A stretch of DNA of 64,000 nucleotides from assembly GCF_002017865.1 (NCBI RefSeq), contig NZ_MTJN01000002.1:3224001-3288000 (forward strand), read 5' to 3'. Made by a program: the position numbers and the translations under genes. This document shows positions 38,628 through 62,200 of this stretch, one piece after another. How positions within the stretch are numbered: position 1 is the first letter of the stretch; each line of letters opens with the position of its first letter. The stretch comes from Rhodoferax fermentans (GTDB lineage Bacteria > Pseudomonadota > Gammaproteobacteria > Burkholderiales > Burkholderiaceae_C). The notes beneath the pieces are model-generated. The model saw nothing but the letters and a program-made list of their open reading frames with translations, made no database searches and was not told where the DNA came from.

Positions 38628-40304
38628 TCAGGCCCGAAAGCGGTTGGTGATGGGGTAACGCCAGTCTTTGCCAAAACTGCGGTGGGTCACCCGGATGCCC
38701 ACCGGCGACTGGCGCCGTTTGTACTCGTTGATCTTGATCAGGCGGGTGACCCGCTCCACATCGGCACGCTCGAACCCGGCGGCAATGATCTCTTCAATGC
38801 TCTGGTCGTTTTCCATGTAACGCTCCAGGATCGCGTCCAGCACCTCATAAGGCGGCAAGCTGTCCTGGTCGGTCTGATCCGGGCGCAACTCGGCACTCGG
38901 CGGGCGGATGATGATGCGCTCGGGGATCGGTTCAGCACCTGTGCCATACGGGTCATGCGCATTGCGCCAGCGCGCCAGACGGAACACCGTGGTTTTGGCC
39001 AAATCCTTGATCACCGCAAAACCACCGGCCATGTCGCCGTACAGGGTGCAGTAACCGGTGGCCATCTCGCTCTTGTTGCCAGTGGTCAACACGATGCTGC
39101 CAAACTTGTTGCTCAAAGCCATCAGCAGCGTGCCGCGGATGCGGGCCTGGATGTTTTCTTCGGTGGTGTCTTCTGCCAGCCCCTTGAACTCACCCGCCAG
39201 CGTCGCCTTGAAGGCCTCGAACTCGGGCACGATCGACAGCTCGTCGTAACGCACACCCAGGCGCTTGGCCATCTCACGTGCGTCGATCCAGCTGATGTCG
39301 GCGGTATAGGGCGAGGGCATCATCAGCGCACGCACCCGGTCCTTGCCCAGCGCGTCCACCGCAATCGCCAGCACCAGCGCCGAGTCGATGCCGCCCGACA
39401 AGCCCAGCAACACCGACGGAAAGCCGTTTTTGGTGATGTAGTCACGCACACCCAGCACCAGCGCGTCCCACAGGTCTTCGTCGGGGGTCCGGTCGGGTGC
39501 GATGCTTGATATGATATTCATAGCTGTCTGCCCTTTATCTATAAGGGCCAGAAGGCTATTTTCTACAAAACTCGGGGCACGCCCGGCCAATGAGCCGTCG
39601 GCGTTCAGGATGAACGAGTGGCCCTCAAACACCACCTCGTCCTGCCCACCAACCAGGTGGGCGTAGACCAGCGGCAGACCACACTCCAGCGCACGTTGAC
39701 GCATCATCAACTCGCGCTCCTGCCCTTTGCCCACATGGAACGGTGAGGCGTTGATCACCGCCAGCAGCTCGGCACCGGCATCACGCGTCTGGCGTGCAGG
39801 CTCGGCAAACCAGGCGTCTTCACAAATCAGCAGGCCCACCTTGACGGTGTGGCCCACCTCCCCGGCCTCAAACACACACACGTCCTGCCCAGGCGAGAAA
39901 TAACGGCGCTCGTCAAACACCTGGTAATTGGGCAACTGGCGCTTGGCGTAACTCGCCACCACCTGCCCCTCGCGCAGCACACTGGCGGTGTTAAAACGCT
40001 GCTGCACCGCCACCGACTTGGTGCGGCTGTCGCCCCCTGTGGGGTGGCCCACCACCACAGAGAGGTCTTTCAACGGGGCCAACGCCGCAGCCACGGCTTT
40101 CACGGCATCATCACAGGCAGCAATAAAAGCGGCGCGCAAAAACAGGTCTTCGGCGGCATAACCACAAATCGAGAGTTCGGGTGTCAGCACCAGGCGGGCA
40201 CCATCTTGGTAGGCCTGTTGGGCGGCCTGGATGATTTTTTGCGAATTACCGGCCAGATCACCCACCACCAGGTTGAGTTGGGCAATGCAGAGTTTGAGCG
40301 TCAT
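38628..40304 (-). CDS. nadE: Glutamine-dependent NAD+ synthetase
   Basis: Amidates deamido-NAD using glutamine. The N-terminal nitrilase/glutaminase domain has VLTPELSICGYAAEDL (Glu), YAKRQLPNYQVFDE (Lys) and GLLICEDAWF (Cys). The C-terminal synthetase domain has the ATP P-loop GLSGGIDSALVLAI and TTGNKSEMATGY. 558 residues. Between the two domains, at about residues 246-262, is an insert read from a palindromic repeat (NSLLALIDKGQTAMNI). The position is a linker, so activity is probably kept. Confidence 0.94.
   Translation of the reverse strand: MTLKLCIAQLNLVVGDLAGNSQKIIQAAQQAYQDGARLVLTPELSICGYAAEDLFLRAAFIAACDDAVKAVAAALAPLKDLSVVVGHPTGGDSRTKSVAVQQRFNTASVLREGQVVASYAKRQLPNYQVFDERRYFSPGQDVCVFEAGEVGHTVKVGLLICEDAWFAEPARQTRDAGAELLAVINASPFHVGKGQERELMMRQRALECGLPLVYAHLVGGQDEVVFEGHSFILNADGSLAGRAPSFVENSLLALIDKGQTAMNIISSIAPDRTPDEDLWDALVLGVRDYITKNGFPSVLLGLSGGIDSALVLAIAVDALGKDRVRALMMPSPYTADISWIDAREMAKRLGVRYDELSIVPEFEAFKATLAGEFKGLAEDTTEENIQARIRGTLLMALSNKFGSIVLTTGNKSEMATGYCTLYGDMAGGFAVIKDLAKTTVFRLARWRNAHDPYGTGAEPIPERIIIRPPSAELRPDQTDQDSLPPYEVLDAILERYMENDQSIEEIIAAGFERADVERVTRLIKINEYKRRQSPVGIRVTHRSFGKDWRYPITNRFRA
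39519..39564. repeat. Palindromic repeat inserted in frame in nadE
   Basis: CATAGCTGTCTGCCCTTTAT then CTATAAGGGCCAGAAGGCTA and TTTTCT. Well-preserved flanks and GCCCTT/AAGGGC stem. The nadE reading frame runs through it without a stop. Same peptide frame as the copies in recB and recC. Confidence 0.88.
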
Positions 40305-40338
40305 GGAAAGCTTGGTGCAATGAAGGAAAAAAGAACAG

Positions 40339-41592
40339 ATGTCCGAGTCAAATGATTATGTCATCCGGGTGCTGGATTCACCTCTGGAGGTGGACGCCCA
40401 GGCCTGGGATGGGCTGCTATTCGCCCAGAGCCAGCCCACCCCCTTCATGCGCCACGCTTTCTTGAGCGCCCTGCACAGCACCGGCTGCGCCACCACGGCC
40501 ACCGGCTGGACACCGCGCTTCTTTCTGCTGGAGCGCCAGGGCCAGTTGCACGCCGCCTGCGCGATCTACATCAAGTCCCACTCGCAGGGTGAGTTTGTGT
40601 TTGACTGGGGCTGGGCGCGCGCCTACCACCAGCATGGTTTGTCCTACCACCCGAAAGCGGTGTGTGCCGTGCCCTTCATCCCGGTGCCCGGTAGCCGCTT
40701 ACTGGCACACACGCCAGAAGACCGCCTGGCATTGGTCCATGCGGTGCTGGACTGGTGCTCCGCCGAGCAACTCACCGGCTTGCACGCGCTGTTTGCCAGC
40801 GACGAGGATGTGACGGCACTCAGCCAGGCCGGCCTGTTGCTGCGCCACACCATCCAGTTTCACTGGTCCAACAGCCAACCCGGCTACACCAGCTTCGACG
40901 CATTTTTGACCAGCCTGTCACAAGAAAAACGCAAGAAGATCCGCCAGGAGCGGCGCAAGGTGATGGAGGCTGGTGTGACTTTTCGGGTGCTGGAAGGCGC
41001 GGCCATCACGCCGACCGACTGGGACTTTTTCTACCACTGCTACGAGCGCACCTACCTGGAGCACGGCAACCCGCCCTACTTCAACCGCGCCTTCTACCGC
41101 CACATGGCGAGCGACATGCCCGAGGATTGGGTGCTGTTCATCGCTGAGCGTGATGGGCGGCCCATTGCTGCAAGTTTGCTAGCTATCAACGCAAGCAGCA
41201 TCAGGGCTAAAGGCCAAAATAGCTCAGAACTCTCCACAGATCAGGAAGTCACTGTCGCGACTGGCACCACACGCCCGACCGAGCGTGTGGCTTATGGCCG
41301 TTACTGGGGCGCTCTGGAGCGCGTGGATTGCCTGCATTTTGAGGCGTGCTACTACCAGCCGCTGCAATGGTGCATCGAACACGGCTACCAGCGTTTTGAA
41401 GGCGGCGCCCAGGGCGAACACAAACTCGCCCGAGCCCTGCTGCCCGTCACCACCACCAGCGCCCACTGGCTGGCGCACCCGCAGTTTTTTGCGGCGGTGG
41501 ACAACTTCCTGACGCAGGAGCGCGAAGGCATTGGCGAGTACGTCGATGAGCTGGTGCGGCACAGCCCGTTCAAGGCGGGTGCGGCTGGCTGA
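40339..41592 (+). CDS. FemAB-like GNAT acyltransferase (peptidogalycan-type)
   Basis: 417 residues of the FemAB-like family: FAQSQPTPFMRHAFLSALH, EFVFDWGWARAYHQHGLSYHPK, KKIRQERRKVMEAGVTF, FYHCYERTYLEHGNPPYFNR, HFEACYYQPLQWCIEHGYQRF and EGGAQGEHKLARALLP. Members are annotated as peptidogalycan biosynthesis proteins or N-acetyltransferases; the substrate is not proven. Residues about 280-300 (LLAINASSIRAKGQNSSE) come from a palindromic repeat and break the usual segment before VAYGRYWGALE. Divergent from nadE, 34 bp apart. Confidence 0.85.
   Translation: MSESNDYVIRVLDSPLEVDAQAWDGLLFAQSQPTPFMRHAFLSALHSTGCATTATGWTPRFFLLERQGQLHAACAIYIKSHSQGEFVFDWGWARAYHQHGLSYHPKAVCAVPFIPVPGSRLLAHTPEDRLALVHAVLDWCSAEQLTGLHALFASDEDVTALSQAGLLLRHTIQFHWSNSQPGYTSFDAFLTSLSQEKRKKIRQERRKVMEAGVTFRVLEGAAITPTDWDFFYHCYERTYLEHGNPPYFNRAFYRHMASDMPEDWVLFIAERDGRPIAASLLAINASSIRAKGQNSSELSTDQEVTVATGTTRPTERVAYGRYWGALERVDCLHFEACYYQPLQWCIEHGYQRFEGGAQGEHKLARALLPVTTTSAHWLAHPQFFAAVDNFLTQEREGIGEYVDELVRHSPFKAGAAG
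41177..41225. repeat. Degenerate palindromic repeat inside the FemAB-like gene
   Basis: TTGCTAGCTATCAACGCAAG, CAGCATCAGGGCTAAAGGCC, AAAATAGCT. Left flank TAGCTATCAA and right flank GGGCTAAAGGCCAAAAT match the family; the stem itself is eroded. Unlike the other genic copies it is read on the + strand. Confidence 0.65.
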
Positions 41593-41778
41593 AGTGTTGA
41601 GATTATTGGGGTGTTGGGTGGCGGAAGGTGAGGCAGCTATAGGTGATAAGCGGTCAGATACAGCGCTTCATATCGCTCGTTCAACGTTTGACGTCAGTGG
41701 CAGCCGCAACGGCGAAGCTGCGAAGGGTACCCAAAAGCGCAGCTTGTGGGTGGTCCCTTTCGACGGAAGGTTTGGTTT

Positions 41779-42177
41779 CTACCGCTTCTTGGTAGGCGGC
41801 TTTTGTGCGAGTGCAGACCCTGCGGCAGCCTTCGAGGCTGCGCTCGTGCGGCCATCGCGAAGAACTTTGGATGCCGCTGTCGCTGCAGGAGCAGAGGTAA
41901 CTCTCTTTGGAACTACTTGTGCTAAAGAACTGGCCGCAGCCGATTTTGATGATGCTCCTGTTGATGGGCTCTTCAAAACGGCCGAGGCTTTTTGCGCTGT
42001 TGGCTGACTAGTCACCTTTACAGGTGCAGTGTTTTTAGCTGCTGCTGATTGAGAGCGCGCCGCAAAACTACCTTTTGAGACTGTGCCCCCCGTAGATTTT
42101 GCCGTCGCACTCTGAATGCGAGCAGATGCCTTTGGTGACATCGGCGTACTTCCTTTTCCATTCCCTTTAGTTACCAC
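41779..42177 (-). CDS. Small Ala/Ser/Lys-rich protein, SMP-like
   Basis: 132 residues from GTG 42177, preceded by a strong AAAGGAGG. The N-terminal region PKASARIQSATAKSTGG and SKGSFAARSQSAAAKN matches small bacterial proteins annotated as seed-maturation-like (SMP), as I recall. The rest is low-complexity Ala/Ser/Lys/Pro ending in PPTKKR. Probably disordered and basic; function unknown. It stands alone, 105 bp after the membrane gene on the same strand. Confidence 0.7.
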   Translation of the reverse strand: MVTKGNGKGSTPMSPKASARIQSATAKSTGGTVSKGSFAARSQSAAAKNTAPVKVTSQPTAQKASAVLKSPSTGASSKSAAASSLAQVVPKRVTSAPAATAASKVLRDGRTSAASKAAAGSALAQKPPTKKR

Positions 42178-42282
42178 AACAACCTCCTTTTTAGTTAATG
42201 ATGCAAATGAGCTCAGACCGGATCAGCGAAACCTAACATTGGAGTTCAGCGGCTGCTGAAAACAGTCCGCTGCAATGACGAG

Positions 42283-42753
42283 TCAGAGCGCATTCTTGGT
42301 TGTACTAGCTTCTTCTTTGTCTTGGCGCGACTTCATCTCCGCAATGCTTTCTTTGAAGCGTTGACGACGCTCCGCGATTGGGCCAAGGCTCGCAGTGTGA
42401 GGAACGAAAGCAAGCGCTCGGAAGAAAAAGTAGGTTGCGATTAAGTAACCCACCGCCGCAAAAATATCTAGCAAGGGAGAAACCGCCCACGAAAGGACGG
42501 TAACAACCAGACCTTTGAGAACATAGTGCATAGCACCATACAGGCAGAAGAAGCGCGCCTGCGCGCCAACTTCGCCGGAAGTCTCGTGCGCGGCCAAAGC
42601 AAACCAATTCGCGGTCTTCTTATCGCTGCCCAGGCGAGCAGCAAATTTGCGGACGCCTCGCTGGCCGATTTCGAGGATTGCCCAAAATAATGCGGAGCCC
42701 AATGCTCCTTGCACGATTACCGGCCAATCGGTGATGGTCTTCACAATGTCCAT
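42283..42753 (-). CDS. Hypothetical membrane protein
   Basis: 156 residues. Hydrophobic segments are IVQGALGSALFWAILEI, YGAMHYVLKGLVVTVLSWAV and LDIFAAVGYLIATYFFFRAL; the C terminus is charged (RRQRFKESIAEMKSRQDKEE). Not recognised. GC content is lower than in surrounding genes. It may be co-transcribed with the SMP-like gene below it; there is no clear Shine-Dalgarno. Confidence 0.55.
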   Translation of the reverse strand: MDIVKTITDWPVIVQGALGSALFWAILEIGQRGVRKFAARLGSDKKTANWFALAAHETSGEVGAQARFFCLYGAMHYVLKGLVVTVLSWAVSPLLDIFAAVGYLIATYFFFRALAFVPHTASLGPIAERRQRFKESIAEMKSRQDKEEASTTKNAL

Positions 42754-43269
42754 GATGTGACTATTGATGCGCTCTAACTCAATATATGGAGACAGAAGCC
42801 TGTCTCCCTAAAACGGCAATCGTCGCCCAAAAATCGCCGAGCGACTCCGTAACAAACCCGCTTGCAATAAGGCTTGCGGCCGATTTCTTGTATAAACAGA
42901 CAGCCATAACAACTCCAGACAAACCAGTAAACCGGTTCCCAAGTCAACCCAGCTTGTGGATCAATAACGCAAGCAAACACCTTGCTTTCACTGTAGCCGC
43001 AGTACAGAAGAGGCTTGGTTGTCTTGGATCAATAACTTCACCCGTTTTCATGGCTTGAGGCATCCGCGCGACATGAGGCAAATCGACATTGAATCGTTTT
43101 TGACTTTTCTGGCCATCACCCCTGTCATCTTCTCGTAGGTTATTCATGAGAGGATCAGCCCGAGCGCACACCGCGTCTGGCACCAAGATTGCTTGTTCAA
43201 CGCGGTATGAACGCACCCATTGCCGCGCCCGATCGCTGCCCGATTCCTCAGCCAACTTGAGATCCACGC
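42754..43269. other. 516-bp intergenic region with one perfect hairpin
   Basis: No convincing gene on either strand. At 42788-42807 is a perfect hairpin GGAGACAG-AAGC-CTGTCTCC, followed by CTAAAA, so it is not a standard T-tailed terminator. Composition is lower in GC than the flanks. Contains the promoter region of the large transglutaminase gene, whose elements I cannot define. Confidence 0.5.
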
Positions 43270-46200
43270 ATGTCCATCCACGCCGCGCTGAACCACGTTA
43301 CCCACTACTCGTATGACCGGCTGGTCGCCCTGGGGCCGCAGGTGGTCCGCCTGCGCCCTGCCCCGCATTGCCGCAGCAAGATCATCTCGTACTCGCTCAA
43401 GATCGAGCCCGAAGGCCATTTCATCAACTGGCAGCAGGACCCGTTTGCCAACTACCAGGCGCGCCTGGTGTTCCCCGAGAAAACGCGGGAGTTCAAGGTC
43501 ACCGTCGACGTGGTTCTGGACATGGCGGTCTACAACCCGTTTGACTTTTTCCTGGAGCCTGAGGCCGAAGAGTTTCCGTTCAACTACGCGGCCGACCTCA
43601 AGCAGGAGCTTGCCCCGTACCTGACCGCCGACCCGGTGACGCCGCTGGTGCAGGCCTACCTGGACAAAATCGACCGCACCAAACGCCGCAGTGTGTTGTT
43701 CCTGGTGGACCTGAACCAGTCGGTGCACCGCGCCATCAACTACACCATCCGTATGGAGCCGGGGGTGCAAACGCCTGAGGAAACCCTCACGCTGGGTTCG
43801 GGCTCGTGCCGCGACTCGGCTTGGCTGATGGTGCAGCTGCTGCGCAACTGTGGTCTGGCGGCGCGTTTTGTCTCGGGTTACCTGATCCAGCTCAAACCCG
43901 ATGTCAAGTCACTCGACGGCCCCAGCGGCACCGAGGTTGACTTCACCGATTTACACGCCTGGTGTGAGGTGTACCTGCCTGGCGCAGGCTGGGTCGGCTT
44001 GGATGCCACTTCCGGACTGCTGGCCGGTGAAGGCCATATTCCGCTGGCTTGCACACCCCAGCCGTCCGGTGCCGCACCCATCGAAGGTGGCGTGGACGAG
44101 TCCGAGGTGGAATTTGCCCACCACATGCAGGTGACGCGTATTTACGAGTCGCCCCGTGTCACCAAACCCTATACCGAAGCCCAGTGGGACAACATCATGG
44201 CCCTGGGCCACGCGGTGGATGCCGACCTGCAAACCAACGATGTGCGGCTGACCATGGGCGGTGAGCCCACCTTTGTGGCGGTCAACGACCGTGATGCACC
44301 GGAATGGAATACCGACGCGCTGGGCCCGACCAAACGCGGCTTCGCCACCGAATTGGTGCACAAGTTGCGCAAGGAATACGGTGAAGGCGGCTTTTTGCAC
44401 TACGGCCAGGGCAAGTGGTACCCCGGTGAACAACTGCCACGCTGGGCCTTGAACATCTACTGGCGCGCCGATGGCCAGCCGGTTTGGGCTAACCCGGCGC
44501 TGTTTGCGGATGAGAGGGTGCCCACCCACTACACCAGCCAGGACGCACAACGCTTCACCCACACGCTGGCGACCAAACTGGGCGTCACCGACAAGTTTGC
44601 CCAGACCGCGTATGAGGACAGCTGGTACTACCTGTGGCGCGAACGCCGCCTGCCGGTCAATGTGGACCCATTCAATTCCAAGTTGGACGACGAGATGGAA
44701 CGTGCCCGCCTACGCCGTGTGTTCACCCAAAAACTCGACACGCCAGTGGGTTATGTGCTGCCGATCAAGGTGGCGGGTTATGACGACACCTATGGCGCCG
44801 CCTGGACCACCGGCCCCTGGTTCCTGCGTGATGAACGCATGTACCTGATGCCGGGCGACTCCCCCATGGGCCTGCGCCTGCCGCTGGATTCCCTGCCCTG
44901 GGTCAGCGAGGCTGACTTCCCCTACCTGATCGAGCAAGACCCGTCCACCTTGCGTGGTGAGTTGCCGCTGCATGCCAGCGTGGCTGGGCGTTACGCCAAT
45001 GCGGCGTCTGACACTGCCAGCGCGCGCAGCAGCGTGAGCCCGGGTGTATCCGATGTGCCCAGCGGCCACGCCCCCGGCAAGGCCGGTCTGGCACTCGGTG
45101 CGGCGCGCCGTGCCGCCGCCGCCGTGGCTTCGGCCATGACCGGCAACACCAGCGCGGCTGCCGCTTATCTGGCCGGCACCGGCCCGCAGTCGGAGGCCAG
45201 CCGACTGATGCAAAGCCCCACCGGCCCGGCCAGCAGCACCGCCAGCCACGCGCAAAGCAACTTCCAGCCTGAGCCCGCCAACTTTGCCCGCGTGCCGGAT
45301 CGTCAGGAATCCGCCCACTGGATCACCCGCACCGCGCTGTGTGTGGAGGTACGCGACCCGCGCCGTGCCAATGGCCCCAAAGCCGAGGCAGTGGGCACGG
45401 CCTCCGGTGTGCTCTACATCTTCATGCCGCCGCTGGAGCGGCTGGAACACTACCTGGACCTGCTCGCCGCCGTGGAAGCCACTGCAGAAGAACTGGGCGT
45501 GCAGATCGTCATCGAAGGTTACCCACCGCCGCGTGACCCGCGTCTGAAATTGCTCAGCGTCACCCCCGACCCCGGTGTGATCGAGGTCAACATCCACCCG
45601 GCCAACAACTGGAAGGAGCTGGTCTACAACACCGAGTTCCTGTACCAGGCAGCGTTTGAGTCACGCCTGAGCGCAGAAAAGTTCATGACCGATGGCCGCC
45701 ACACCGGCACCGGTGGTGGCAACCACTTTGTGATGGGTGGCGCCACACCGGCCGACAGCCCGTTCCTGCGCAAACCCGAGTTGCTGGCCAGCCTGCTGCT
45801 GTATTGGCACAACCACCCATCGCTCAGCTACCTGTTCAGCGGCATGTTTGTTGGCCCCACCAGCCAGGCACCGCGTGTGGACGAGGCGCGCAACGACCAG
45901 CTCTACGAGCTGGAAATTGCCATCGAACAAATCTATAAAAACCGCGAGATCCACGGCCAGTCCATGCCACCCTGGCTGATTGACCGCACGCTGCGCAACA
46001 TCCTGATCGACGCCACCGGCAACACCCACCGCAGCGAAATCTCGATCGACAAGATGTACTCGCCCGACTCGGCCACTGGCCGCCTGGGCCTGTTGGAGCT
46101 GCGTGCGTTCGAGATGCCGCCGCACCCGCACATGAGCAGTGTGCAGCAGCTGCTGTTGCGCGCCCTGATCGCCCGCTTCTGGAAAACACCGTACAAGGCC

Positions 46201-46899: not shown

Positions 46900-46937
46900 A
46901 CGGCCAACACATCCACGGATGTGCTGGTGCCTTGGGT

Positions 46938-47017: not shown

Positions 47018-47099
47018 GAGACGCCTGTGGCGCTCGATGCCTTTGAGGACGCCTTTGGCGTCCGGCTATTGGATGCAAGCGAACTTGTGACGCACGTCG

Positions 47100-47177: not shown

Positions 47178-47218
47178 CCACCCACAGCCTGCGATTCCAC
47201 AGGTAAACATTTCTTTTT

Positions 47219-47267
47219 CGATAGCTATCAGCCCTTGATCTATAAGGGCTAGAGGCTATTTTTTTGC
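47219..47267. repeat. AGCTAT-type palindromic repeat, best-preserved copy
   Basis: CGATAGCTATCAGCCCTTGA then TCTATAAGGGCTAGAGGCTA and a run of seven Ts. Use as the reference copy of the family: left flank GATAGCT, stem GCCCTT/AAGGGC, right flank TAGAGGCTATTTT. Intergenic, about 117 bp before the acyltransferase start. Confidence 0.9.
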
Positions 47268-47383
47268 AAAACCGGAAAACGTCAGCCAAACCACCCACTG
47301 ACCAGCTAACATGCCCCGCTGAGCAGCACCCTGCAAGCCTCTGCCACCCCGTTGCACAACCGACTCAGACAGGAGCATGAACC

Positions 47384-48691
47384 GTGATCTCGCGCCCTCT
47401 CGACCCCGGTGAAGCGTTTTTCTTCCTGTCTGACCAGCTCTCGTGCATGAACTTTGTGGTGCTGGCCGAGCGCAGCGGCACGCTGGCACCTGCGGCGATC
47501 CACCGCGCACTCGACACGGTGCAACAGGAACACGCGCTGCTGCAAACCCACATCAGCTGGACCGAGGCCAACGGCCTGCGTTTTGAACCCGCCCCCGGCA
47601 AAAAGATTGACCTGGTGTGCCACACGGTCACAGGCCAACACTGGCAGCGCCTGATTGAGCAAGAACTCTCCCACACGTTCCCGCCAGACAGCGCACCGCT
47701 GATGCGCTGCCACTACATCGCTCTGCCTGCCACCAAGACCTGTGTGCTGGCGCTGACCTTTCACCACTCGGTGGCCGATGGCCGTTCTGGCACCGCCATC
47801 CTGCGTCGCCTGCTGAGCCTGATAGCCCAGGAAGCCGCGCCGACCACTGGCACCAGCCCCACCCACCTGCCACCGATGGCCGAGCTGATGCCCAAACCCT
47901 ACCGCTGGGCCGAGCAGCCCGACGCCGCCAAACAATTGCGCAACACCCTGGTGGCCGACTACCGCCGCCACGGCCTGCTGCCAAGCATCCCCTGGCTGGC
48001 TGCAGACGCCAAGCACCGCGAGCCCCGGCTGATGCGTGTGTTGCTCGATACCGCCACCACCTCCCGCCTGATTCAACAGGCACACGCCCAAGGCTGCACC
48101 GTGCATGGCGCCTTGTGTGCCGCCCAGCTGCTGGCGCAATGGCAGCTGCAACCCACGGCCGAGCCGGTGGCGTCTTTTCTGTGCTGCCCGGTGGACCTGC
48201 GCCCGCACCTGGAGGGCACACCTGCCACCTCACCCACGGGCTTTTTCACCTCTCTGATTTCAGGCAGCTTTTTGACCGGCCCGGACACCGAGACCTGGGC
48301 CCTGGCGCGCGAGATCGTGGCCCAGACTCGCAAACAAATCGCGCGGGGTGAAGGCCACCTGCTCTACCACCTGTACGGGCTGGACGACTCGCCCCTGCCG
48401 CCGCAGGCGCTGGAGGGTTTTCGCAAAAAAACCATGGCGTCACTTCCTAACACCATGGTCAGCAACATCGGGGGGGTCGAACCTGTGGCAGATGACCCGG
48501 CGGTGCAGGCGATCTCGTTTGCGCTGTGCCCGATGCCGTACCAGACGCTGTTCACCGCCGCCAGTTGTTACCAGGGCCAGCTGATCCTGAACATTGGCTA
48601 TGACGCAGCGCGCATCACAAGCGACACCGCGCAGGCACTGGCCACCGGGCTACAAAACAGACTGGTATTGATGGCTCAAAACCCGTCTTAG
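47384..48691 (+). CDS. Stand-alone condensation-type acyltransferase (PapA/WES-like fold)
   Basis: 435 residues with the CoA-dependent acyltransferase/condensation fold. Catalytic HHSVADG at residues 127-133 (His128, Asp132), and the later DFGWG-like region is replaced by NTMVSNIGGVEPV. PVDLRPHLEG and SPTGFFTS resemble PapA5 and alcohol acyltransferases. There are no carrier-protein or adenylation domains, so it likely acylates a free alcohol or amine. Neighbours are an exporter on the opposite strand and no biosynthetic cluster. The last residues and stop lie in a palindromic repeat. Confidence 0.75.
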   Translation: MISRPLDPGEAFFFLSDQLSCMNFVVLAERSGTLAPAAIHRALDTVQQEHALLQTHISWTEANGLRFEPAPGKKIDLVCHTVTGQHWQRLIEQELSHTFPPDSAPLMRCHYIALPATKTCVLALTFHHSVADGRSGTAILRRLLSLIAQEAAPTTGTSPTHLPPMAELMPKPYRWAEQPDAAKQLRNTLVADYRRHGLLPSIPWLAADAKHREPRLMRVLLDTATTSRLIQQAHAQGCTVHGALCAAQLLAQWQLQPTAEPVASFLCCPVDLRPHLEGTPATSPTGFFTSLISGSFLTGPDTETWALAREIVAQTRKQIARGEGHLLYHLYGLDDSPLPPQALEGFRKKTMASLPNTMVSNIGGVEPVADDPAVQAISFALCPMPYQTLFTAASCYQGQLILNIGYDAARITSDTAQALATGLQNRLVLMAQNPS

Positions 48692-48726
48692 CCCTTATTT
48701 AACAAGGCGATACAGCTATCTTTTTT
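48666..48726. repeat. Palindromic repeat carrying both convergent stop codons
   Basis: TATTGATGGCTCAAAACCCG, then TCTTAGCCCTTATTTAACAA, then GGCGATACAGCTATCTTTTTT. The stem is AGCCCTTAT…AACAAGGC. The TAG of the acyltransferase and the TAA (complement) of the MFS gene both fall within it, and the T-run gives a terminator-like end on the + strand. Confidence 0.7.
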
Positions 48727-50152
48727 AAGACTCACCCCGGCTCACGCTGTCGCCGTCGTTGGGGCGCAGGGTCCAGAACAACAGGGACGAGAGCAAGGTC
48801 AAGCCACCCAGGGTGAGAAACGCGTGGTGGATGGCGCTGGTCACCGCTGGGGCATTGGTCTGGGGCAGGCCCGCCAGGTAAAAACCGGTCACCAGCGAAC
48901 CACAGGCCAGGCCAAAACTCAAGGACATCTGCTGCAAGGTGCTGGCCAGCGTGCTGGCCATGGCGGTGTCCTTGTCATCAATGTCGGCATAGGCCATGGT
49001 GTTCATGCTGGAAAACTGCAAGGAATTGAACAGCCCCATCATCAGGCCCAGCAGCACAATCAAAGCGATGGGTGTGCCCACCCCCACCAGGCTGTAGCAG
49101 GCAATGGTGCAGCCCACCAGCACGGTGTTCACAATCAGCACCTGACGGTAACCAAAACGCCGCAGCATCCAGGCGGCAAGCATCTTCATACCCATGGCCG
49201 CTGCAGCGGCGGGCATCATCAGCAGACCCGACTGCCAGGCCGGCAGGCCCAAGCCCACCTGGTACAACAGCGGCAACAAAAACGGCATGCCGCCCACACC
49301 CAGCCGGGTCACAAAACCACCCAGCACCGACACCCGAAAGGTGCGTACCAACAGCAAGGACAGGCGCAGCAGCGGGTGTGGCCAGCCCAGCGCGTGCCAA
49401 ACGTAGGCGGCCAGCAGGCTCAGGGACAGCAACAACACCCCCAGCGCCTCGGTGGTGCTCAGGGTGTGTTCACCAAACACCTCCAGCAGCCACGACAACA
49501 GCGCCACACCGCTGCCAAACAGCAGCAGCCCCCGCACATCGAGCGGGGTGCGGGTGTCACTGCGGTAGTCGGGCATGTAACGGTGGCCAAACCACAGCGC
49601 GGCCAGCCCCACCGGCACATTGACAAAAAAGATGTCGCGCCAACTCAGCCAGTGCACGATCAGCCCTCCCACCGTGGGGCCCAGCAAAGGCCCCAGCAGC
49701 GCGGGGATGATGACAAAGTTCATCGCCCGAAGCAGCTCCCCCTTGGGAAAGGTGCGCACAACGGCCATGCGCCCGACCGGCATCATCATCGCGGCCGCAA
49801 TGCCTTGCGGCACCCGCGCGGCCACCAGCATCGGCGCATTGACCGCCAGGCCACAGGCCACCGACGACAAAATGAACAGCATCAAAGCCGACATGAACAC
49901 CCGGCGGCTGCCATAACGCTCGGCCAGCCAACCACTCACCGGGATACTCACCGCCAGACTCAGGATGTAACTGGTCACCACCGCCTTGAGGCTCAGCGGT
50001 GTCACGCCCAGGCTGACCGCCATGGCGGGAATGCCGGTGTTGACGATGGTGGCGTCGAGCTGCTCCATGAACAGCGCGGTGGCTACCACCCAGGGCAGGT
50101 AACGTTTGGTGGTGGCCTGCGCCACGCCCGGCTCTGGCACACCGGTGCTCAT
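48725..50152 (-). CDS. DHA2-family MFS multidrug exporter
   Basis: 475 residues with 13-14 hydrophobic helices. DHA2 signatures: LDATIVNTGIPAMAVSLG (motif D1), SGWLAERYGSRRVFM (motif A), RVPQGIAAAMMMPVGRMAVV (motif B), LLGPLLGPTVGGLIVHWLSWRDIFFVNVP (motif C and H, in two parts). Close to the MdtD/EmrB subgroup of drug:H+ antiporters; no EmrA adaptor nearby. Convergent with the acyltransferase gene. Confidence 0.88.
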   Translation of the reverse strand: MSTGVPEPGVAQATTKRYLPWVVATALFMEQLDATIVNTGIPAMAVSLGVTPLSLKAVVTSYILSLAVSIPVSGWLAERYGSRRVFMSALMLFILSSVACGLAVNAPMLVAARVPQGIAAAMMMPVGRMAVVRTFPKGELLRAMNFVIIPALLGPLLGPTVGGLIVHWLSWRDIFFVNVPVGLAALWFGHRYMPDYRSDTRTPLDVRGLLLFGSGVALLSWLLEVFGEHTLSTTEALGVLLLSLSLLAAYVWHALGWPHPLLRLSLLLVRTFRVSVLGGFVTRLGVGGMPFLLPLLYQVGLGLPAWQSGLLMMPAAAAAMGMKMLAAWMLRRFGYRQVLIVNTVLVGCTIACYSLVGVGTPIALIVLLGLMMGLFNSLQFSSMNTMAYADIDDKDTAMASTLASTLQQMSLSFGLACGSLVTGFYLAGLPQTNAPAVTSAIHHAFLTLGGLTLLSSLLFWTLRPNDGDSVSRGES

Positions 50153-51581: not shown

Positions 51582-51666
51582 GATGGTGCGTATAACCCTT
51601 CAGTTCATCCAACGGCAAGCCAAGTCTGGGGCTCGACTGTTGTCGACGTGCAGTAGCTATTTTCCA

Positions 51667-54923: not shown

Positions 54924-55535
54924 ATGCCCCAATCCCTCACCACCCCCAGCACCAGCGAACTGGTGATCAAAAAGAGCCGTTTCATCGGATGCGTGCAGCC
55001 CGTTGCGGATCGGGCAGCGGCGCAGCAGGTGGTGGCTGCGCTGCGTTCAGAGCACCCGGCGGCGTCGCATGTGTGCTGGGCGCTGCTGGCGGGCGGGCAC
55101 TCGGCGGCGGTGGACGATGGCGAGCCCAGCGGCACGGCCGGGCGGCCCATGCTGGAAGTCTTGCGCCACCAGGATCTGGACGGCGTGCTGGCCACGGTGG
55201 TGCGCTACTACGGCGGCGTGAACCTGGGTGCCGGTGGCCTGGTGCGCGCCTACACCGATTGCGTTGCCCAGGCGTTGCTGGGCGCTGAAAAAGCCCCCAT
55301 CGTGCGCCTGCTCACCCTGCGCTGCGCCCTGCCCTATGCGCTGGAAGGTTTGGCCCGCCGTGAGTTGCAAGCCGCAGGTGGCACGCTGGGCCAGGTGCAG
55401 CACACCGCGCAGGTGGAAATGACCTTCACCCTGCCCGAGCCTGCGGCGGCCCCGCTGGTCGCCAAGCTCAACGAGGCAAGCCATGGGCAGATGCGTTGGC
55501 TGGGGTTGGACGAAGCGGCTGAGGGACTGTGGTGA
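54924..55535 (+). CDS. yigZ: IMPACT/YigZ-family protein
   Basis: 203 residues. N-terminal UPF0029 domain: ELVIKKSRFIGCVQPV, ASHVCWALLAG, DDGEPSGTAGRPMLEVL and VVRYYGGVNLGAGGLVRAYT, which is the family signature. C-terminal DUF1949-type domain (AQVEMTFTLPE). Binds nucleic acid or ribosomes in relatives; precise role unclear. It is the only + strand gene within the recC-recB-recD stretch. Confidence 0.9.
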   Translation: MPQSLTTPSTSELVIKKSRFIGCVQPVADRAAAQQVVAALRSEHPAASHVCWALLAGGHSAAVDDGEPSGTAGRPMLEVLRHQDLDGVLATVVRYYGGVNLGAGGLVRAYTDCVAQALLGAEKAPIVRLLTLRCALPYALEGLARRELQAAGGTLGQVQHTAQVEMTFTLPEPAAAPLVAKLNEASHGQMRWLGLDEAAEGLW

Positions 55536-55602
55536 CATGAACTCAAAACGCCTGAAGCACCTGCCTTTTGCCGATCACCGCACCATGTCCCCTCACAGCG
55601 AA

Positions 55603-58600
55603 TCAATCCTGCCGATCTAGCAACGGTGATCGCGAAAACACCTCATCCAGCGCCTCAATCAAAGCCACAGGCGGGCTCACATGCAGCAGGCCGCAGCCCG
55701 GCTGGTCGATGCCGCGCAGGAACAGGTACAGGGCGCCGCCCAGGTGCTGGGCGGGGTTGTAGTCGGGCAGGCGGCTTTTGAGCAGCCGGTGCAGCGCCAG
55801 CAGGTACAGCGCGGCTTGCACGTCGTAGCGGTGGTTCAGCATGGCCTGCTGCAAGGCCTCGGGCAGGTAGGCCGTCAGGCGGTTGGACTTGTAGTCGAGC
55901 ACGTAGTAGCGCCCCTGGTGCAGCAGCACCAGGTCCATGAAGCCGGTCAACATGCCTTGTAACTGGCGGTGTTGCAAGGCTGGTCGGGGCTGGCCGGGCC
56001 AGATCTGGCGCGTAATCAAGGCATCCAGCTCCTCACTGGCCAGGTGGTGCACCGGCAGACTAAAGCCCATCTCGGGCCACATGTCCTGTACCTGGATGTC
56101 ACTTAAATTGATAGCTGTCTGCCCTTGATTCATAAGGGATAGAGTCAGATTTGACTTCACAATCAAACGCACCCAGTCGTCCAGCAGTGCGCTGTGTGTG
56201 GGGCTCAGGTGGTGGCGCTGGCTTAAGCGTGCCAGCAGGGTTTGCCATGGCTGAGTCAGCTGGGACGGGTAAGCGTCTGTGGCCTTGGCAGCAGGCCAGT
56301 CGTGCACCGCCTGCCACTCCAGCAGGTCGTGCAACAAGGTGCCGTAACGGCTGCCCGCCGGGAAGTCGTTGAAGCGGGGAACCTCACTCAGCAAGTCGAC
56401 CCCTGTTGGGTTCGCGATGCCTTGGTCCTCGTCGAGCAGCAAACTGTCTGTCTGGGCGTCCAGCAGGCGTTCATCACGTTCGCTGGGCAGCATGGCAGAC
56501 GCGCCGTGCGCCAAGTCGCGGGTGAGTGCGCTGAAACTGGCAGTCCACCAGCGGTTGTAGATCAGGCGCTGCGGTACCCGTGCGCTCTGGGGTGTTTTGA
56601 CCTCCAGCACCGGCTGGTAAACGGCGTCATCGGGTTCGGGCGCGGTCAGCACCGCAATGTCAGCGCTCGCCCAGGCTTGCAATTTGTCCCACAGGTCGTC
56701 CGGCGCGCTGCGGCCCAGCAGGCAAGAGACCGCACTTTTGACCTGGGGCGATTTGCCATCCACGTCCCCTTTGACCTGGGCCACGCCGAGCCAGAGCGCC
56801 TGTTTGGCACGCGTGAGCGCCACATACAGCAGGCGGATGTCTTCACTGAGGCGCTCAGCATCATCGCGGCCACTGTCCTTGTCTTCGGCGCGGTAGAGCG
56901 AGATGAAGGGCAAAAACACCAGCGGGTACTCCAGCCCTTTGGATTTGTGCAGCGTCACCACCTGCACCAGGTTGGCGTCGCTCTCCAGCCGCAGTTGCGC
57001 GGCCTCACCACTGGCTTGCGGGCGGCGCAGCTGCTCTTCCAGGTAACGGATCAAAGCACCCTCCCCTTGCACCTGCAGGCTGGCCGCTTGCAACAGCTCA
57101 CCCAGATGTAACAGGTTGGTCAGCGCACGTTCACCCTGCGCCGGGTCTTGTAACAGGCGTTGGGCCAGACCCTGGTCGTGCAACAAGCGGTACAACATCG
57201 GCAAAAAGCCCTGGCTGCGCCAGACACGTTGCCATTGCAGAAACTGCTCCACCAGGGCGTCCCAGGCCGCCTCATCAGCCAGCAGCGCGTCCAGTTGCGC
57301 CCAGCCCAGCGACCAGGTGGGGGTGGCCAAGGCGGCACGCACCAGCCGGTTGGAACCCGGACTGGCCACCGCACGTAACAAGCGCCACAAGTCCTTGGCC
57401 TGCTGGCTGTCAAACACACTGTTGCGCTCGGACAGGTACACACTGCGCACACCACGCTGCGTCAGCGCCTGGCGAATCGCGTCGGCCTCGCTCCAGTTGC
57501 GCACCAACACGGCCATGTCACCACTCTGCGCGGCGCCACCTTGCAACAGCGCCACCATCTGGCTGGCAAACACCGCTGCCATCTGGCTCAGAAAATCGTC
57601 CTTGGTCGGGGTTTTGGCAAAAGGCAGGTGCCAAACCGTCATTGCCACCTGCGGTTGGCCTGACACCTGGAGCGGCTGGATGTGGGGGTTGCGGGCGTCC
57701 ACCTTCACAAAAGGTACGCTGCCGAAGGGCTGCTGCGCTTGGCAAAACACCCGGTTCACCGCGGCCACGACACCCATCGTGGAGCGGAAATTGCCCGGCA
57801 GGTTGTAGATGCCCTGGGCTTGCTCACGCGCGAGCAGGTAGGTGGCCAGGTCGGCACCGCGAAAGCTGTAGATAGCCTGTTTGGGGTCACCAATCATGAT
57901 CAGGCCGGTGTCCTGTGACTTCCGTTCATCTTCAGAAGAAATCGGGCTGTAGCCCTCATCTTGATTCGGCATATCGCTATAAATTTTGCGCAAGCTGCCA
58001 AACTGCCAGGGGTCGGTGTCCTGGAACTCATCGACCAGCGCCACCGGGTACTGGGCGCGAATGGCCGCTGCCAGCCGACCGTCAGGCGCTTGCAGCGCGT
58101 GGTAGAGGTTCTGCAGCAGGTCAGAAAAGTCAAACTGCGCGGCCTGGGCTTTGGCGCGCTGGTAACTCCGTTGCACCTCTTGCGCGGCATGCTGCAGCAA
58201 ATCCGTCACCACATCGGGCTCGGTGCTCAGGTGGTCGGCCAGGGTTTCCAATTTGGCAAACACCGGCCACTGGTCAGCTGCGGCCCAGCCTTTGGCCACC
58301 AGGGTACGGGTGGTGAAACGCTCCAGCGTGGTTGTGTCAATCTCGCCGCCCTGCACCCAATCGGACATCTGGGCCACCCAGCCGCCCAGCCAGTCTGGGC
58401 GGTAGTTCTTGAGCGTCTTGGCAGCAGCGACATCACTCACGGCCTGAGCAACTTCGGGCGTCCAGGCTAAACGCGCCGGGCTTTCCAGTTCCACACGGTG
58501 CTGTTGCCAAGCCGCCCAGCGCGCCAGCAACACATCGGGAGGTGTGGGCGCGGAAACACCGGTCTGCGGGGCGCGATCGGCATCACGCCACAAGGCCTTG

Positions 58601-59226
58601 AGTTTGTCGAGCAGCGCCTGCGGGGTGTCACCCACGGCCTTGAGTGCGGCCAGGGTCTGGGTATCCAGCGCGTAAAACCAGCGGCGCCAATAGTCTTGGG
58701 TGGCCACAAGCTGCAGGCGTTCACCGTCCTCGACCCGGTTCTGGGTGAACAGGCTGGCGCTGTCAAACGCATGGGTTTTGAGCATACGGCTGCTCCAGCC
58801 GTGGATGGTGAAAATGGCCGCGTCGTCCATCCACTGCGCCGCCATGTCGAGCCGCTGGGCGCACACCGGCCAGTGTTCGGGCGCGATGCTTGCGCGCAAA
58901 TCTTGCAAAAAGCCGTCCACCTTGGTCTCATCACCGGTCAGGAAAAACCGGGCAGACAGCGCCAGCCGCTCGCGGATGCGTTCACGTAATTCGGCGGTGG
59001 CGGCTTCAGTGAAGGTCATCACCAGGATTTGTGGCGGGTACAGGCCCACACCGGGCTGGTCTGAGTCAGCGGTGTGGCCCAGCACCAGTCGCACATACAG
59101 CGCGGCCAGTGTCCAGGTTTTGCCGGTGCCCGCTGATGCCTCAATTAGCTGCAGGCCATGCAGCGGCAGGGTCAGCGGGTTGAGGGTGTGTGTCACCGGC
59201 GATGTGGTGCTGGGGATGCTGCTCAT
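55603..59226 (-). CDS. recB: Exodeoxyribonuclease V beta subunit RecB
   Basis: 3'-5' helicase and the only nuclease of RecBCD. Walker A SAGTGKT at residues 31-37, QILVMTFTEAATAELRERI, VALVDEFQDTDPWQF (motif II), GDPKQAIYSFRGAD (III), VVTLHKSKGLEYPLVFLPF and LLYVALTRAKQALWLG. The C-terminal nuclease has GFMDLVLLHQGRYYVLDYKS (Asp and Asp-x-Lys). 1207 residues. At about residue 1025-1040 the chain reads TLSLMNQGQTAINLSD, encoded by a palindromic repeat. Its ATG overlaps the recC stop by 4 bp. Confidence 0.95.
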   Translation of the reverse strand: MSSIPSTTSPVTHTLNPLTLPLHGLQLIEASAGTGKTWTLAALYVRLVLGHTADSDQPGVGLYPPQILVMTFTEAATAELRERIRERLALSARFFLTGDETKVDGFLQDLRASIAPEHWPVCAQRLDMAAQWMDDAAIFTIHGWSSRMLKTHAFDSASLFTQNRVEDGERLQLVATQDYWRRWFYALDTQTLAALKAVGDTPQALLDKLKALWRDADRAPQTGVSAPTPPDVLLARWAAWQQHRVELESPARLAWTPEVAQAVSDVAAAKTLKNYRPDWLGGWVAQMSDWVQGGEIDTTTLERFTTRTLVAKGWAAADQWPVFAKLETLADHLSTEPDVVTDLLQHAAQEVQRSYQRAKAQAAQFDFSDLLQNLYHALQAPDGRLAAAIRAQYPVALVDEFQDTDPWQFGSLRKIYSDMPNQDEGYSPISSEDERKSQDTGLIMIGDPKQAIYSFRGADLATYLLAREQAQGIYNLPGNFRSTMGVVAAVNRVFCQAQQPFGSVPFVKVDARNPHIQPLQVSGQPQVAMTVWHLPFAKTPTKDDFLSQMAAVFASQMVALLQGGAAQSGDMAVLVRNWSEADAIRQALTQRGVRSVYLSERNSVFDSQQAKDLWRLLRAVASPGSNRLVRAALATPTWSLGWAQLDALLADEAAWDALVEQFLQWQRVWRSQGFLPMLYRLLHDQGLAQRLLQDPAQGERALTNLLHLGELLQAASLQVQGEGALIRYLEEQLRRPQASGEAAQLRLESDANLVQVVTLHKSKGLEYPLVFLPFISLYRAEDKDSGRDDAERLSEDIRLLYVALTRAKQALWLGVAQVKGDVDGKSPQVKSAVSCLLGRSAPDDLWDKLQAWASADIAVLTAPEPDDAVYQPVLEVKTPQSARVPQRLIYNRWWTASFSALTRDLAHGASAMLPSERDERLLDAQTDSLLLDEDQGIANPTGVDLLSEVPRFNDFPAGSRYGTLLHDLLEWQAVHDWPAAKATDAYPSQLTQPWQTLLARLSQRHHLSPTHSALLDDWVRLIVKSNLTLSLMNQGQTAINLSDIQVQDMWPEMGFSLPVHHLASEELDALITRQIWPGQPRPALQHRQLQGMLTGFMDLVLLHQGRYYVLDYKSNRLTAYLPEALQQAMLNHRYDVQAALYLLALHRLLKSRLPDYNPAQHLGGALYLFLRGIDQPGCGLLHVSPPVALIEALDEVFSRSPLLDRQD
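56104..56152. repeat. Palindromic repeat inserted in frame in recB
   Basis: TAAATTGATAGCTGTCTGCC, CTTGATTCATAAGGGATAGA, GTCAG. The left flank and stem are well kept (GCCCTTGATTCATAAGGG). Read on the minus strand it encodes LSLMNQGQTAINL, the same frame as in nadE and recC. Confidence 0.88.
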
Positions 59227-62200
59227 GCGGCCACCCCCGTGCTCACTTCGGCCTGGGCCAGCAGATCACCATAGAGCTGCTGCGCCCAGTGCGGCAGTGC
59301 TTCCGCCAGGTCGTCATAACTTACAAAAGCGCGCTGCAGGTAGGCTGACTCGGCGCGTTCACCGCCGCGCTGGCCGCCTTCAAAAGCGTCGCGGGTGGCC
59401 TCATGCGGGTCTTTGGTCACTTTGCCTGCGGCCAGCAGCGCCTGGTTTTGGCGCTCGGCCAGCAGGTAAGCCCAGGCGGTTTTGCAGGCGACTGGCAGCG
59501 GCTGTGCCCAGGCTTGGGTATAGGCTTGCCCCAGGTCGCCCAGTGTGGCCAAGGCCGCGTCAGACGACAGCGGGCGAAACACCACCTGGCCGTCGACCCC
59601 CAGCTGCACGCTGGTGATCTGCAACCCACTGGCACAGGCCACCAAATGCCGCAGCCACAGGCCCACCAACACATGGTGGCGCGCGGCCAGATTGGCGCCC
59701 CGACCCTGCAACACCGCGCCGGTGCGTTCGGCCAGTTGCAGACAAGGTGCCTCCCCGCCCTGCCCCTGCGACCACAGGCCGTTGAGCGTGCCGATCAGGG
59801 TCTGGCCCAAAGGCAAGCTCAGCTCAATCGGAACCGCCGCCATCACCACCGGGTAAGCCTGGAGCCAAGTGGCGCGGGACAGCAGCACGGTCTGCGCCTT
59901 GTCCATCAGCTCAGCCGCCACCCGGTTGCCAAAGCCAGCCAGCGGCAACTGGCCAGCGGCGTAGAGGCTGCGCAAGGCTAAAGCGCTGCCATCGGCTTGT
60001 AACAGCGCGGCACCAGCCTGGTACTGCTGCAGGTGGTTCAGGGCAAACGGTTCGTCTTCTTGCTCCAGCTCGTCCAGTTCGTCAAACTCCACCTGCAGCC
60101 GCTGGCGAAAAAACACCTCGACCGGCTGGCGCAGCAGGCGTTGTAAATCGGCCAGCGTCAATGCGCTGGGGACCGCACTGCCCGTTGCTGCTTCAGTCAC
60201 TTCACTCTTCATAGCAATCTGCCCTTTATTTATAAGGGCTAGAGGCCGAATCTTTTCCCAATCGGCGTCAAAGGTCTCAAAGCCTGAACCCTGCTCAAAG
60301 TAGGCCTCAGAAAACGGTTGCAGCGGCTGCGCCTGCGGCACCCGTTCAGGCGACCAACTGGCATTGACCACATCGAGCAACTGAGCCACCAGCACCGAGG
60401 GCGGCCGGCTGCTGTTGTCGGCCGCGCTGTGGCCCTGCCAGCTGATGTAGAGCCGGTGGCGCGCTGAGAGCAGCGCCTCCAGAAACAGGTAACGGTCGTC
60501 CTCGCGGCGCGAGCGGTCACCGGCGCGCCAGCTGCTGGCCATCAAATCGAAATCGCGCGCGGCCTGCACACGCGGGTAGGCGCCGTCGTTCATGCCCAAG
60601 AGGCCAATCACCTTGAACGGGATGGCGCGCATCGGCATCAAGGTGCCAAACTGCACACCACCACCAAAAAAGCGCTGCTGCAGACCCGCCTCGGTGATGT
60701 TGGCCAGCCAGTGTTCACGCACCACCTCCAGCGGCAGGGGGGTGTCCAGCGCCGCGTCCTCACAGGCTTGTTGCCAGTCGGCCAGGGGCGTGAGCAAGCG
60801 CTCGATGGCGCGCTCGTCCGCGTCGTCAGCCGGGGCAAAAAAGCGCTCGACCAGGGCTTGCAAAAGTTGACCCCACTGCGCGGGCGTGTGTTCCAGCTGC
60901 AAGATGGGCAGCGTCTGTTCAATGGCATCCAGCCAGTCCAGCAGGCCGGCTGCCAGCGGTGCGTCCAGGCCACTCAGTGCAGGCTGCGCCAAGGTGTCGC
61001 ACCAGATCGCGCCGCTGGCCGCGTCTTGCTCTGGCTGCGCCCCACTGCTGCCCAAGGCGTAACCCAGCAGCAGGCGGCGCAGGCCAAAGGCCCAGGTGTT
61101 TTGCGCCAAACCCTGTGCGCCCGCAGGCAGACCCCAGGCCAGGCGGTGATTGGCGTCCAGCCCCCAGCGCACACCGGCGGTGGCCAGCCACTGCTGCACC
61201 TGGCGCACTGCAGCTTCGTCCAGGCCAAAACGCTCACGCACTGCGGCCACCTCAAACAGGCCCAGCCAATCGGCCAGCGAAAGGCGGCTGGTGGGCAAAT
61301 TCAGCAACTGCTCCAGCGCCTGCACCAGCGGGCTCAAACGGGGGGTGCTGTCGGCCACCGAATACGGGATGTAACGCGGCTGGCCGGGTGTGAAGCGGCC
61401 AAACACCGCGTGGATGTGCGGCGCAAAAGCGGCCATGTCGGGCACCATCACCATCACCTCACGCGGCTGCAAAGCGGTGTCAGCCTCCAGCCAGGCCAGC
61501 AGCTGGTCGTGCAAGACTTCGAGCTCACGCTGGGCGCTGTGGCTGGTGACAAACAGCAGCGAGCCGTCGTCCGGCTGGGCCTGAGGCTCGGTGGGTGGTG
61601 GTGTCAGGTTAAAGATGGCCGACTGCAGCTGCGCCAGTTGGGTGGCGGGTGTTTCCCTGTCAGCCGGGTCCATAAACACATCAACCCGGCTCCAGTGCGC
61701 GCGGTAAGACTCGGGCTCGTCAAAGCCGTCGAGCAAATGCAAATAGTCACGCCCCTGTTTGCCCCAGGAGGCCAGCATCGGCTGCGCGCTAGCGGCAGGC
61801 AACGCGGTGCTGTTGACCTGTTGCGGCTTGCCCAACTGCCTGCGGCGCACCTGGGCGCGCAGGGCAGCGTGGCCCTCGACCACATCACCCCAGAAATACT
61901 GACACGGGTTTTGCACCAGCAGCATCACCTGGCACACCTGCCCCAGCGCTGCCAGCGCTTGCACCGCCTGCATCGGCAGGGAAGAAATACCAAACACCAT
62001 CAAGCGGCGCGGCACACCGGGCGGGCGCTGACCGCTGTTCCCGCTGCTGACCCACTGCGTCAGCGCCGCCAAAAAACGTTCGTGCACACTGGCGCGAGAG
62101 GCTTCCATCAACTCCGGCCCCACATCAGCGCGGATGTCGCGCCACAGCAGGGCCTGCCAGGTATGTTCGGGCGGCAGCGGCTGTGCCTTGTCCAACGGCC

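Follow-up and report, generated by a model that had tools for sequence, protein, structure and literature searches.

A 60-bp motif in genes and spacers of Rhodoferax fermentans and its possible recognition as double-stranded DNA

How does one short DNA sequence come to encode a piece of three different proteins? This question is raised by a stretch of 64,000 nucleotides from Rhodoferax fermentans (contig NZ_MTJN01000002.1, positions 3,224,001 to 3,288,000), referred to here as the window, in which copies of a motif of about 60 bp lie within nadE, recB, and recC. An earlier interpretation (the sequence-only reading) described the motif as a palindromic repeat that inserts in frame, in parallel with the Rickettsia palindromic elements (RPE). 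The copies, their minus-strand peptides, and the three protein families were confirmed, and the origin of the copies appears to be different at part of the sites. There is about an even chance that the motif is recognised as duplex DNA and favoured by a genome-wide drive or selection, with both the recogniser and the drive presumed. Some component of the cell would bind the motif as double-stranded DNA, and a genome-wide process would favour any mutation that creates or preserves it. Copies could then arise by two routes. One is the change of single bases within codons already there, as at NadE, SelO, purine nucleoside phosphorylase, probably RecB copy 1, and further sites; the other is a short insertion into a loop that can accommodate it, as in MoeA, ProA, an AceF-like protein, and UvrA.

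The motif was scored with a 60-column profile, which was seeded with 30 copies and refined by iteration. The sample combined the 64-kb window with 60 stretches of 20 kb taken at nearly regular intervals along the chromosome, 1.264 Mb in total. G000 denotes the genome under study, other G numbers denote other genomes of the genus, and L numbers denote fetched loci.

Motif sites in orthologous genes

nadE encodes a glutamine-dependent NAD+ synthase of 558 amino acids (38628..40304, minus strand). Its motif copy lies on the plus strand at 39508..39567, scores 59, and is read in antisense phase 2, where the core (39520-39555) gives the peptide LALIDKGQTAM. The corresponding NadE segment has 48 residues and is ungapped in all 30 Rhodoferax loci compared, and its residues are homologous column by column. 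The motif scores at least 30 in 17 of these loci, 18 in one, and below 10 in 12. Simple insertion of one element was rejected for NadE because the length is equal with and without the motif. The solved homologues 4f4h and 5kha show gaps of only 3 and 1 residues at the motif. G040 (SFIEDSLLVDVQRAPAGLQLEADIAPERS, motif-free) and G047 (SFIENSLVARIKRAQAAIYLEAEVAPERS, score 49) share residues along the segment, and the differences in their first codons are mainly synonymous and directed toward A and T. Comparison of orthologues had been set in advance as the check on insertion; orthologous segments of equal length and homologous sequence that lack the DNA consensus were found at NadE and, less cleanly, at RecB.

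recB encodes 1207 amino acids (55603..59226, minus strand) and carries two copies. Copy 1 (56099..56158, plus strand, score 54) is read in antisense phase 2 with its core from 56111, encodes LSLMNQGQTAIN, and falls on mostly native columns. These columns are occupied in motif-free relatives, and the description of this copy as inserted was not confirmed. The alignment is ungapped in four loci: L112 and L124, without any match scoring at least 16, and L117 and L118, where the matches are faint and in the opposite orientation. The remaining motif-free relatives are short by 1-5 residues or, in loci considered below, longer. RecB copy 1 probably arose in place. At the same site near 7504-7576, loci L114, L117, and L118 lack the usual copy and show the faint matches (19-25) in opposite orientation. 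In L105, an extra stretch in the same loop encodes GPDPQSMASVEWMPDQARHDTKR, presumably resembling another common betaproteobacterial repeat peptide. Copy 2 of recB (57933..57992, minus strand) is weaker, with a score of 36; it is read in sense phase 1 as YSDMPNQDEGYSP, and homologues are shorter here. The neighbouring recC (59223..62855, minus strand, 1210 amino acids, family match TIGR01450) has a plus-strand copy at 60199..60258, which scores 55, is read in antisense phase 2 from a core at 60211, and encodes LALINKGQIAMK in a linker whose length varies among relatives.

MoeA represents the opposite case. The region has 48-76 residues in 20 motif-bearing loci vs 24-34 in 7 motif-free loci, and it has 48-50 residues in G021, G042, and G036, where the motif scores are -3, 6, and 15. 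Among the 23 loci with the extra segment, 20 have copies scoring 36-66; MoeA identity in these species is 65-92%, and at 65-75% identity the score still reaches up to 65. G021 and G042 have lost the motif at both MoeA (-3 and 6) and NadE (-15 and -9), with the MoeA segment retained. The conservation at MoeA and this joint loss argue for continuing maintenance of the motif. In-frame insertion as in Rickettsia was thus borne out at some sites, such as MoeA, whereas NadE and many others show no gain.

Overall, 26 intragenic sites were examined, which were picked for available relatives or solved homologues and not randomly. The motif lies in place at 14 of them and accompanies a length gain at 9, and 3 (RecC, Cca, and MocR) were assigned to neither; no solved homologue was found for Cca. 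In-place sites include SelO (3 gap residues in the alignment to a solved homologue), purine nucleoside phosphorylase (0 gap residues), an acyltransferase-like gene at L067, and eight weaker sites (L042_159903, L042_163137, L054_1054286, L054_1055236, L074, L077, L090_3746433, and L093_3980335). Gains amount to 18 residues in ProA, 29 in the LtaE-type aldolase, 17 in UvrA, 7 in PurL, 8 in a CitE-like protein, 14 at the motif of the AceF-like protein, and 13 at L093_3978922 (9 of them at the motif), and RecB copy 2 is 18 residues longer than 5mbv. Where a linker is variable, a gain may reflect either insertion or ordinary change of length. The UvrA frame (L059:15645-20000, minus strand) runs for 1451 residues to the edge of its stretch and matches a 943-position family model in four stretches, with the motif copy in an extra linker. 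Comparison with 1.15 Mb from three relatives gave 29 alignments covering 25 of the 107 intragenic sites. Of these alignments, 25 were ungapped across the 60-mer, and the motif was absent from the relative in 12 of the 25, at 10 sites.

Copy number, reading frames, and dialects

The profile places the conserved stretch of G000 at about 65 bp, and the consensus is AT-rich. A pattern allowing at most 3 mismatches matched 7 times in the window, where shuffled sequence gave an expectation of 0; over the whole 4.47-Mb genome there were 292 matches, compared with 0 for the reversed control pattern. In the sample, 279 profile matches score at least 9, of which 265 score at least 15, and extrapolation would give about 900 copies on the whole chromosome. 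Chance matches in coding DNA were excluded by the controls, in which reversed DNA reached a maximum of 9.8 and codon-shuffled genes 12.2, and by motif-poor G003, which has 2 matches scoring at least 15 in 351 kb and none scoring at least 30. Among the 265 copies, 128 are intergenic, 107 intragenic, and 30 lie across gene ends; the density is 0.77 per kb in spacers and 0.10 per kb in genes. An excess of plus orientation among the 100 pattern matches listed was gone with the profile, by which strand use is balanced (147 of 279 on the plus strand). The consensus was unmatched in phage records and had one match in plasmid records, in Rhodoferax antarcticus. No description of the motif was recognised in the titles and abstract openings of openly licensed PMC literature.

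The sequence-only reading had held that three of three copies use one frame. The eight intragenic copies of the window use three frames: antisense phase 2 in four (NadE, RecB, RecC, and 25129), sense phase 0 in two (7237 and 41179), and sense phase 1 in two (18621 and recB 57945). The frame constraint itself is real, as the 107 intragenic copies of the sample are strongly uneven over the six frames and two frames dominate (antisense-2 44, sense-0 35, sense-1 11, sense-2 9, antisense-0 5, and antisense-1 3). One of the two causes suggested for it by the sequence-only reading was selection for the only stop-free, tolerable frame, the other being a mechanism that favours this frame. In 104 intergenic copies scoring at least 40, the core is stop-free in antisense-0 in 79, sense-0 in 70, antisense-2 in 59, sense-1 in 32, antisense-1 in 17, and sense-2 in 4. 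If stops alone were decisive, antisense-0 should be the commonest frame, yet it accounts for only 5 of 107 copies. A stop-codon filter was therefore rejected as the full cause (chi-square 76 against the stop-free shares). The antisense-0 peptide is serine-rich and hydrophilic, and its best copy, in MoeA, is accompanied by a length gain; the antisense-2 and sense-0 peptides appear closer to ordinary protein sequence. The bias would arise because only some frames give residues that are tolerated or already present.

Species of the genus write the motif in dialects. The stem is GCCCTT/AAGGGC in G000, of a GCGC type in G010, and of a mixed form in G036. In a leave-one-out comparison, the interaction favoured the home dialect at all 13 shared orthologous motif-bearing sites. 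A model (R1) matched in 25 of 47 other genomes of the genus and in none of the 32 genomes that represent other families of the order; it was trained on the G000 dialect with at most 68 candidates scored per genome, so that other dialects are under-counted.

Sixteen copies were found in the window with the trained profile, 8 of them within called genes. Besides the copies in nadE, recB, and recC, intragenic copies lie at 25117..25176 (plus strand, antisense phase 2, score 45) in the methylmalonyl-CoA mutase gene (24501-26660), at 41167..41226 (plus, sense phase 0, score 44) in the gene at 40339-41592, and, weakly, at 7225..7284 (minus, sense phase 0, score 27) in the gene at 6259-8199 and at 18609..18668 (plus, sense phase 1, score 24) in the gene at 18146-18802. 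Intergenic copies are located at 11601..11660 (plus, score 51), 15586..15645 (minus, 51), 19316..19375 (plus, 60), and 47209..47268 (plus, 65). Further copies lie across the spacer 22972-23036 (23010..23069, plus, score 40), between the convergent gene ends at 48691/48725 (48672..48731, minus, 42), across the upstream end of the gene at 797-1753 (1740..1799, plus, 40), and, weakly, across the junction of the genes at 1915-2580 and 2584-3384 (2560..2619, plus, 19). The window also contains a TPP riboswitch (3472-3569, minus strand) and two tRNA genes (27484-27557 and 27578-27651, minus strand). Near 3.300-3.308 Mb of the chromosomal contig (C2), two copies are letter-identical over 33 bases, in reverse orientation, to two copies on a small G000 contig of about 20 kb (C1), which may reflect duplication of a segment or an error of assembly.

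Mode of recognition and competing explanations

The claim that the motif is palindromic was not confirmed. It has 6-bp arms (GCCCTT/AAGGGC), but the palindrome is weak: of the three regions searched, two gave no inverted repeat of at least 7, and the repeat in the remaining one is imperfect and lies at a different place. A hairpin kept by compensatory change was rejected, as pairing between stem columns is close to that expected of independent columns, with columns 28-36 excepted: over 235 copies, observed minus expected pairing is at most 0.06 at ten stem-region pairs. The strongest couplings in these copies join adjacent columns, with TTT or AAA at 52-54 and similar switching at 27-28 and 8-10. 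The block switching of A/T runs at 8-10 and 52-54 is also seen in G010 (94 copies) and, more weakly, in G036 (35 copies). The two A-tracts are about 44 bp apart around a pseudo-symmetric core. The motif would thus be read as double-stranded DNA with A-tracts and not as a hairpin. Recognition and upkeep across the genome are further supported by the in-place sites, by the home dialects at orthologous sites, by the conservation at MoeA, by the scarcity of copies beside genes of atypical codon use, and by an information content well above that required for the frequency of the motif.

The likeliest driver would be sequence-biased DNA uptake and recombination, purely by analogy with the DNA uptake sequences of Neisseriaceae (DUS) and the uptake signal sequences of Pasteurellaceae (USS), although this is somewhat more probably wrong than right; a chromosome-organising DNA-binding protein would be the next choice. 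It is a doubtful proposal that the motif is a new kind of Rhodoferax self-recognition sequence of about 60 bp, with a species-specific core and about 900 sites, for which a drive, most plausibly uptake-based, rewrites codons and accepts insertions. Dozens of core enzymes would then have gained peptides or had them altered. Uptake would then lie outside the two families with uptake sequences described in the portions of the literature cited here.

Several observations weigh against recognition of the duplex under a genome-wide drive. Among copies scoring at least 40, 6 are in place vs 8 with a gain, compared with 8 vs 1 below 40. The in-place call at methylmalonyl-CoA mutase rests on a protein span equal to the family model without net length change, and the one at L054_1055236 is weak, its ungapped alignment having no codon in common. 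At RecB copy 1, motif-free L115, L116, and L122 are 6-9 residues longer, and L106, whose recB and recC bear the motif at other places, is about 23 residues short there and can be read as an empty site. The absolute score is higher on the own profile for only 10 of 13 relative copies, and the G036 profile (35-40 copies) is loose, as reversed DNA reaches 19.8 on it vs 13.3 with the G010 profile. G026 and G043 have no R1 match and yet have MoeA copies of 42 and 37, so absence by R1 is not proof of a motif-free genome. The stem pair 28-36 shows a small pairing excess, with p 0.002 in G000 (the floor of 500 shuffles) and 0.014 in G010. The information content of 47-53 bits, compared with 13.2 required for the frequency of the motif, is inflated by the selection of copies scoring at least 25. 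Gene boundaries in the sample come from a purpose-written, simple codon-score caller. A tie between motif richness and ComEC was set aside as uninformative, ComEC being present in 56 of 60 genomes, motif-rich or motif-poor alike, and uptake sequences in the parts of the literature cited are shorter than this motif.

The motif avoids DNA of atypical codon use. Copies per 20 kb rise with the native codon score (Spearman 0.42, p 0.0008). Tandem spacers beside genes of the lowest codon-score quartile carry a copy in 2 of 80 cases vs 77 of 243 others (p 4e-9), and for all spacers of 60-600 bases the figures are 10 of 133 vs 114 of 397. Five copy-free stretches, chosen post hoc, contain 24.5 kb of spacer, in which 19 copies were expected. 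Two large genes were scanned in each; metal-ATPase, helicase, AIPR, and glycosyltransferase types were included, and 3 of the 10 were without a family. Genes with a strong codon score are themselves poorer in copies, at 45 per Mb for the top quartile vs 139-145 for the lower half.

The best-surviving alternative, which is fairly unlikely, is a small mobile palindromic element of the REP (repetitive extragenic palindrome), RPE, or MITE (miniature inverted-repeat transposable element) type, which inserted widely, survived where a copy kept the gene open, and shortened or decayed with age. This amounts to the sequence-only reading extended to the whole genome. The gains at MoeA, ProA, the LtaE-type aldolase, UvrA, the AceF-like protein, L093_3978922, the CitE-like protein, PurL, and RecB copy 2 fit such an element, and NadE, SelO, the nucleoside phosphorylase, and the weaker sites, which have no matching length change, do not. 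Spacer density falls from convergent (1.68 per kb) to tandem (0.78) and divergent (0.22), resembling the preference outlined for REPs in PMC3733652, and an old REP family could likewise be rare in recently acquired DNA. The sequence RTAG, mostly ATAG, stands at columns 13-16 in 174 of 235 copies and would serve as a tag; the near absence of excess pairing in the stem region and the old orthologous copies that follow species dialects speak against mobility. The single Y1_Tnp (RAYT-like) gene of G000 (L039:1126-1869) has a strong copy at its 3' end (L039:1075-1134, score 49), but within this 3.3-kb locus no copy was found on the other flank. The same end carries a copy in G019 (L178, 31) and a faint one in motif-poor G003 (L176, 15). 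The gene is present in 53 of 60 genomes of the genus, and a tie between it and motif richness was set aside as uninformative.

A site bound by a protein that organises the chromosome (gyrase, nucleoid, or segregation protein), selected site by site after origin by point mutation or insertion where tolerated, is unlikely. It would agree with the spaced A-tracts and pseudo-symmetric core, with the lack of overall strand bias, and with the depletion of close pairs under 500 bp (11 observed vs 20.6 expected in 209 gaps). On the other hand, selection that tracks a change of dialect at each of about 900 sites is demanding, the information exceeds the need by more than 30 bits, and the number of copies per 20 kb nearly follows a Poisson distribution (mean 4.15, variance 5.08). 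The split by orientation relative to the replication fork (118 vs 131) is void, as the sampled map has its skew minimum at one end and its maximum at the other, and the origin was not located.

An RNA hairpin acting as a terminator or processing site is very improbable, since the high density between convergent genes and the placement of 24 of 37 copies toward the upstream stop (within the nearer half or at the edge of the stop, below 0.4) in tandem spacers of at least 200 are opposed by the use of both orientations in genes and spacers (39 with and 50 against gene orientation in tandem spacers), by barely covarying stems with single-strand folding z-scores of -0.6 to -2.5, and by the harm that a terminator within recB, recC, or nadE should cause.

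If in-place writing and dialect tracking at hundreds of sites are true, a DNA-level process shapes protein sequence in a free-living bacterium beside protein selection. With motif-rich and motif-poor species and with kept and lost sites, the genus would allow drive, selection, and mobility to be separated. The case also cautions against taking every repeat peptide in a protein for an insertion.

Comparison with known repeats and uptake sequences

RPEs, outlined in PMC2229807 for Rickettsia and Wolbachia relatives, are in-frame peptide insertions in conserved proteins, 105-146 bp long, with long stem-loops and terminal repeats. As far as this outline goes, the likeness lies in the in-frame extra peptides at part of the Rhodoferax sites. 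In contrast, the Rhodoferax motif is about 60 bp long with arms of 6 bp, many of its copies leave protein length unchanged, and the two RPE hallmarks, the extra peptide and the long stem-loop, do not characterise it.

The beta-proteobacterial repeat element (BRE), described from Rhodoferax and Polaromonas in PMC3110155, has about 90 bp and 69% GC, and some of its copies are coding. The Rhodoferax host and the coding copies are shared; the AT-rich motif of about 60 bp is set apart by the description available in that source.

REPs, according to part of PMC3733652, have intragenic copies, including in recBCD and uvrA genes, and prefer gene 3' ends and convergent spacers. High copy number, this same preference, and intragenic copies are shared, within that account, with REPs and other GTAG- or CGTC-tagged palindromes. 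However, the Rhodoferax copies are partly in place and follow dialects, their A-tract blocks are found beyond the stem, ATAG is the prevailing tag, the stem shows little compensatory change, and the G000 transposase gene has a copy on one side only.

DUS and USS have 10-12 bp and a reported bias to genome-maintenance genes, as given in part of PMC2346458; species dialects of DUS are outlined in PMC3630211, and a gradual drive of near-matches is argued in the portion of PMC1939737 consulted. Copies of the Rhodoferax motif scoring about 40 or more occur in recB and recC (window 55603-62855) and in mutL, recG, uvrA, and topB (L087, L075, L059, and L068), a gene set that recalls the bias reported for uptake sequences and REPs, with no correction for gene number or length. 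In these partial accounts, uptake sequences have hundreds to thousands of copies in and between genes, an orientation bias in genes, and dialects. The Rhodoferax motif likewise has a high copy number, coding and non-coding copies in both orientations, and species dialects. It differs in its length of about 60 bp, its 47-53 bits, its pseudo-palindromic core, and the length gain at some copies.

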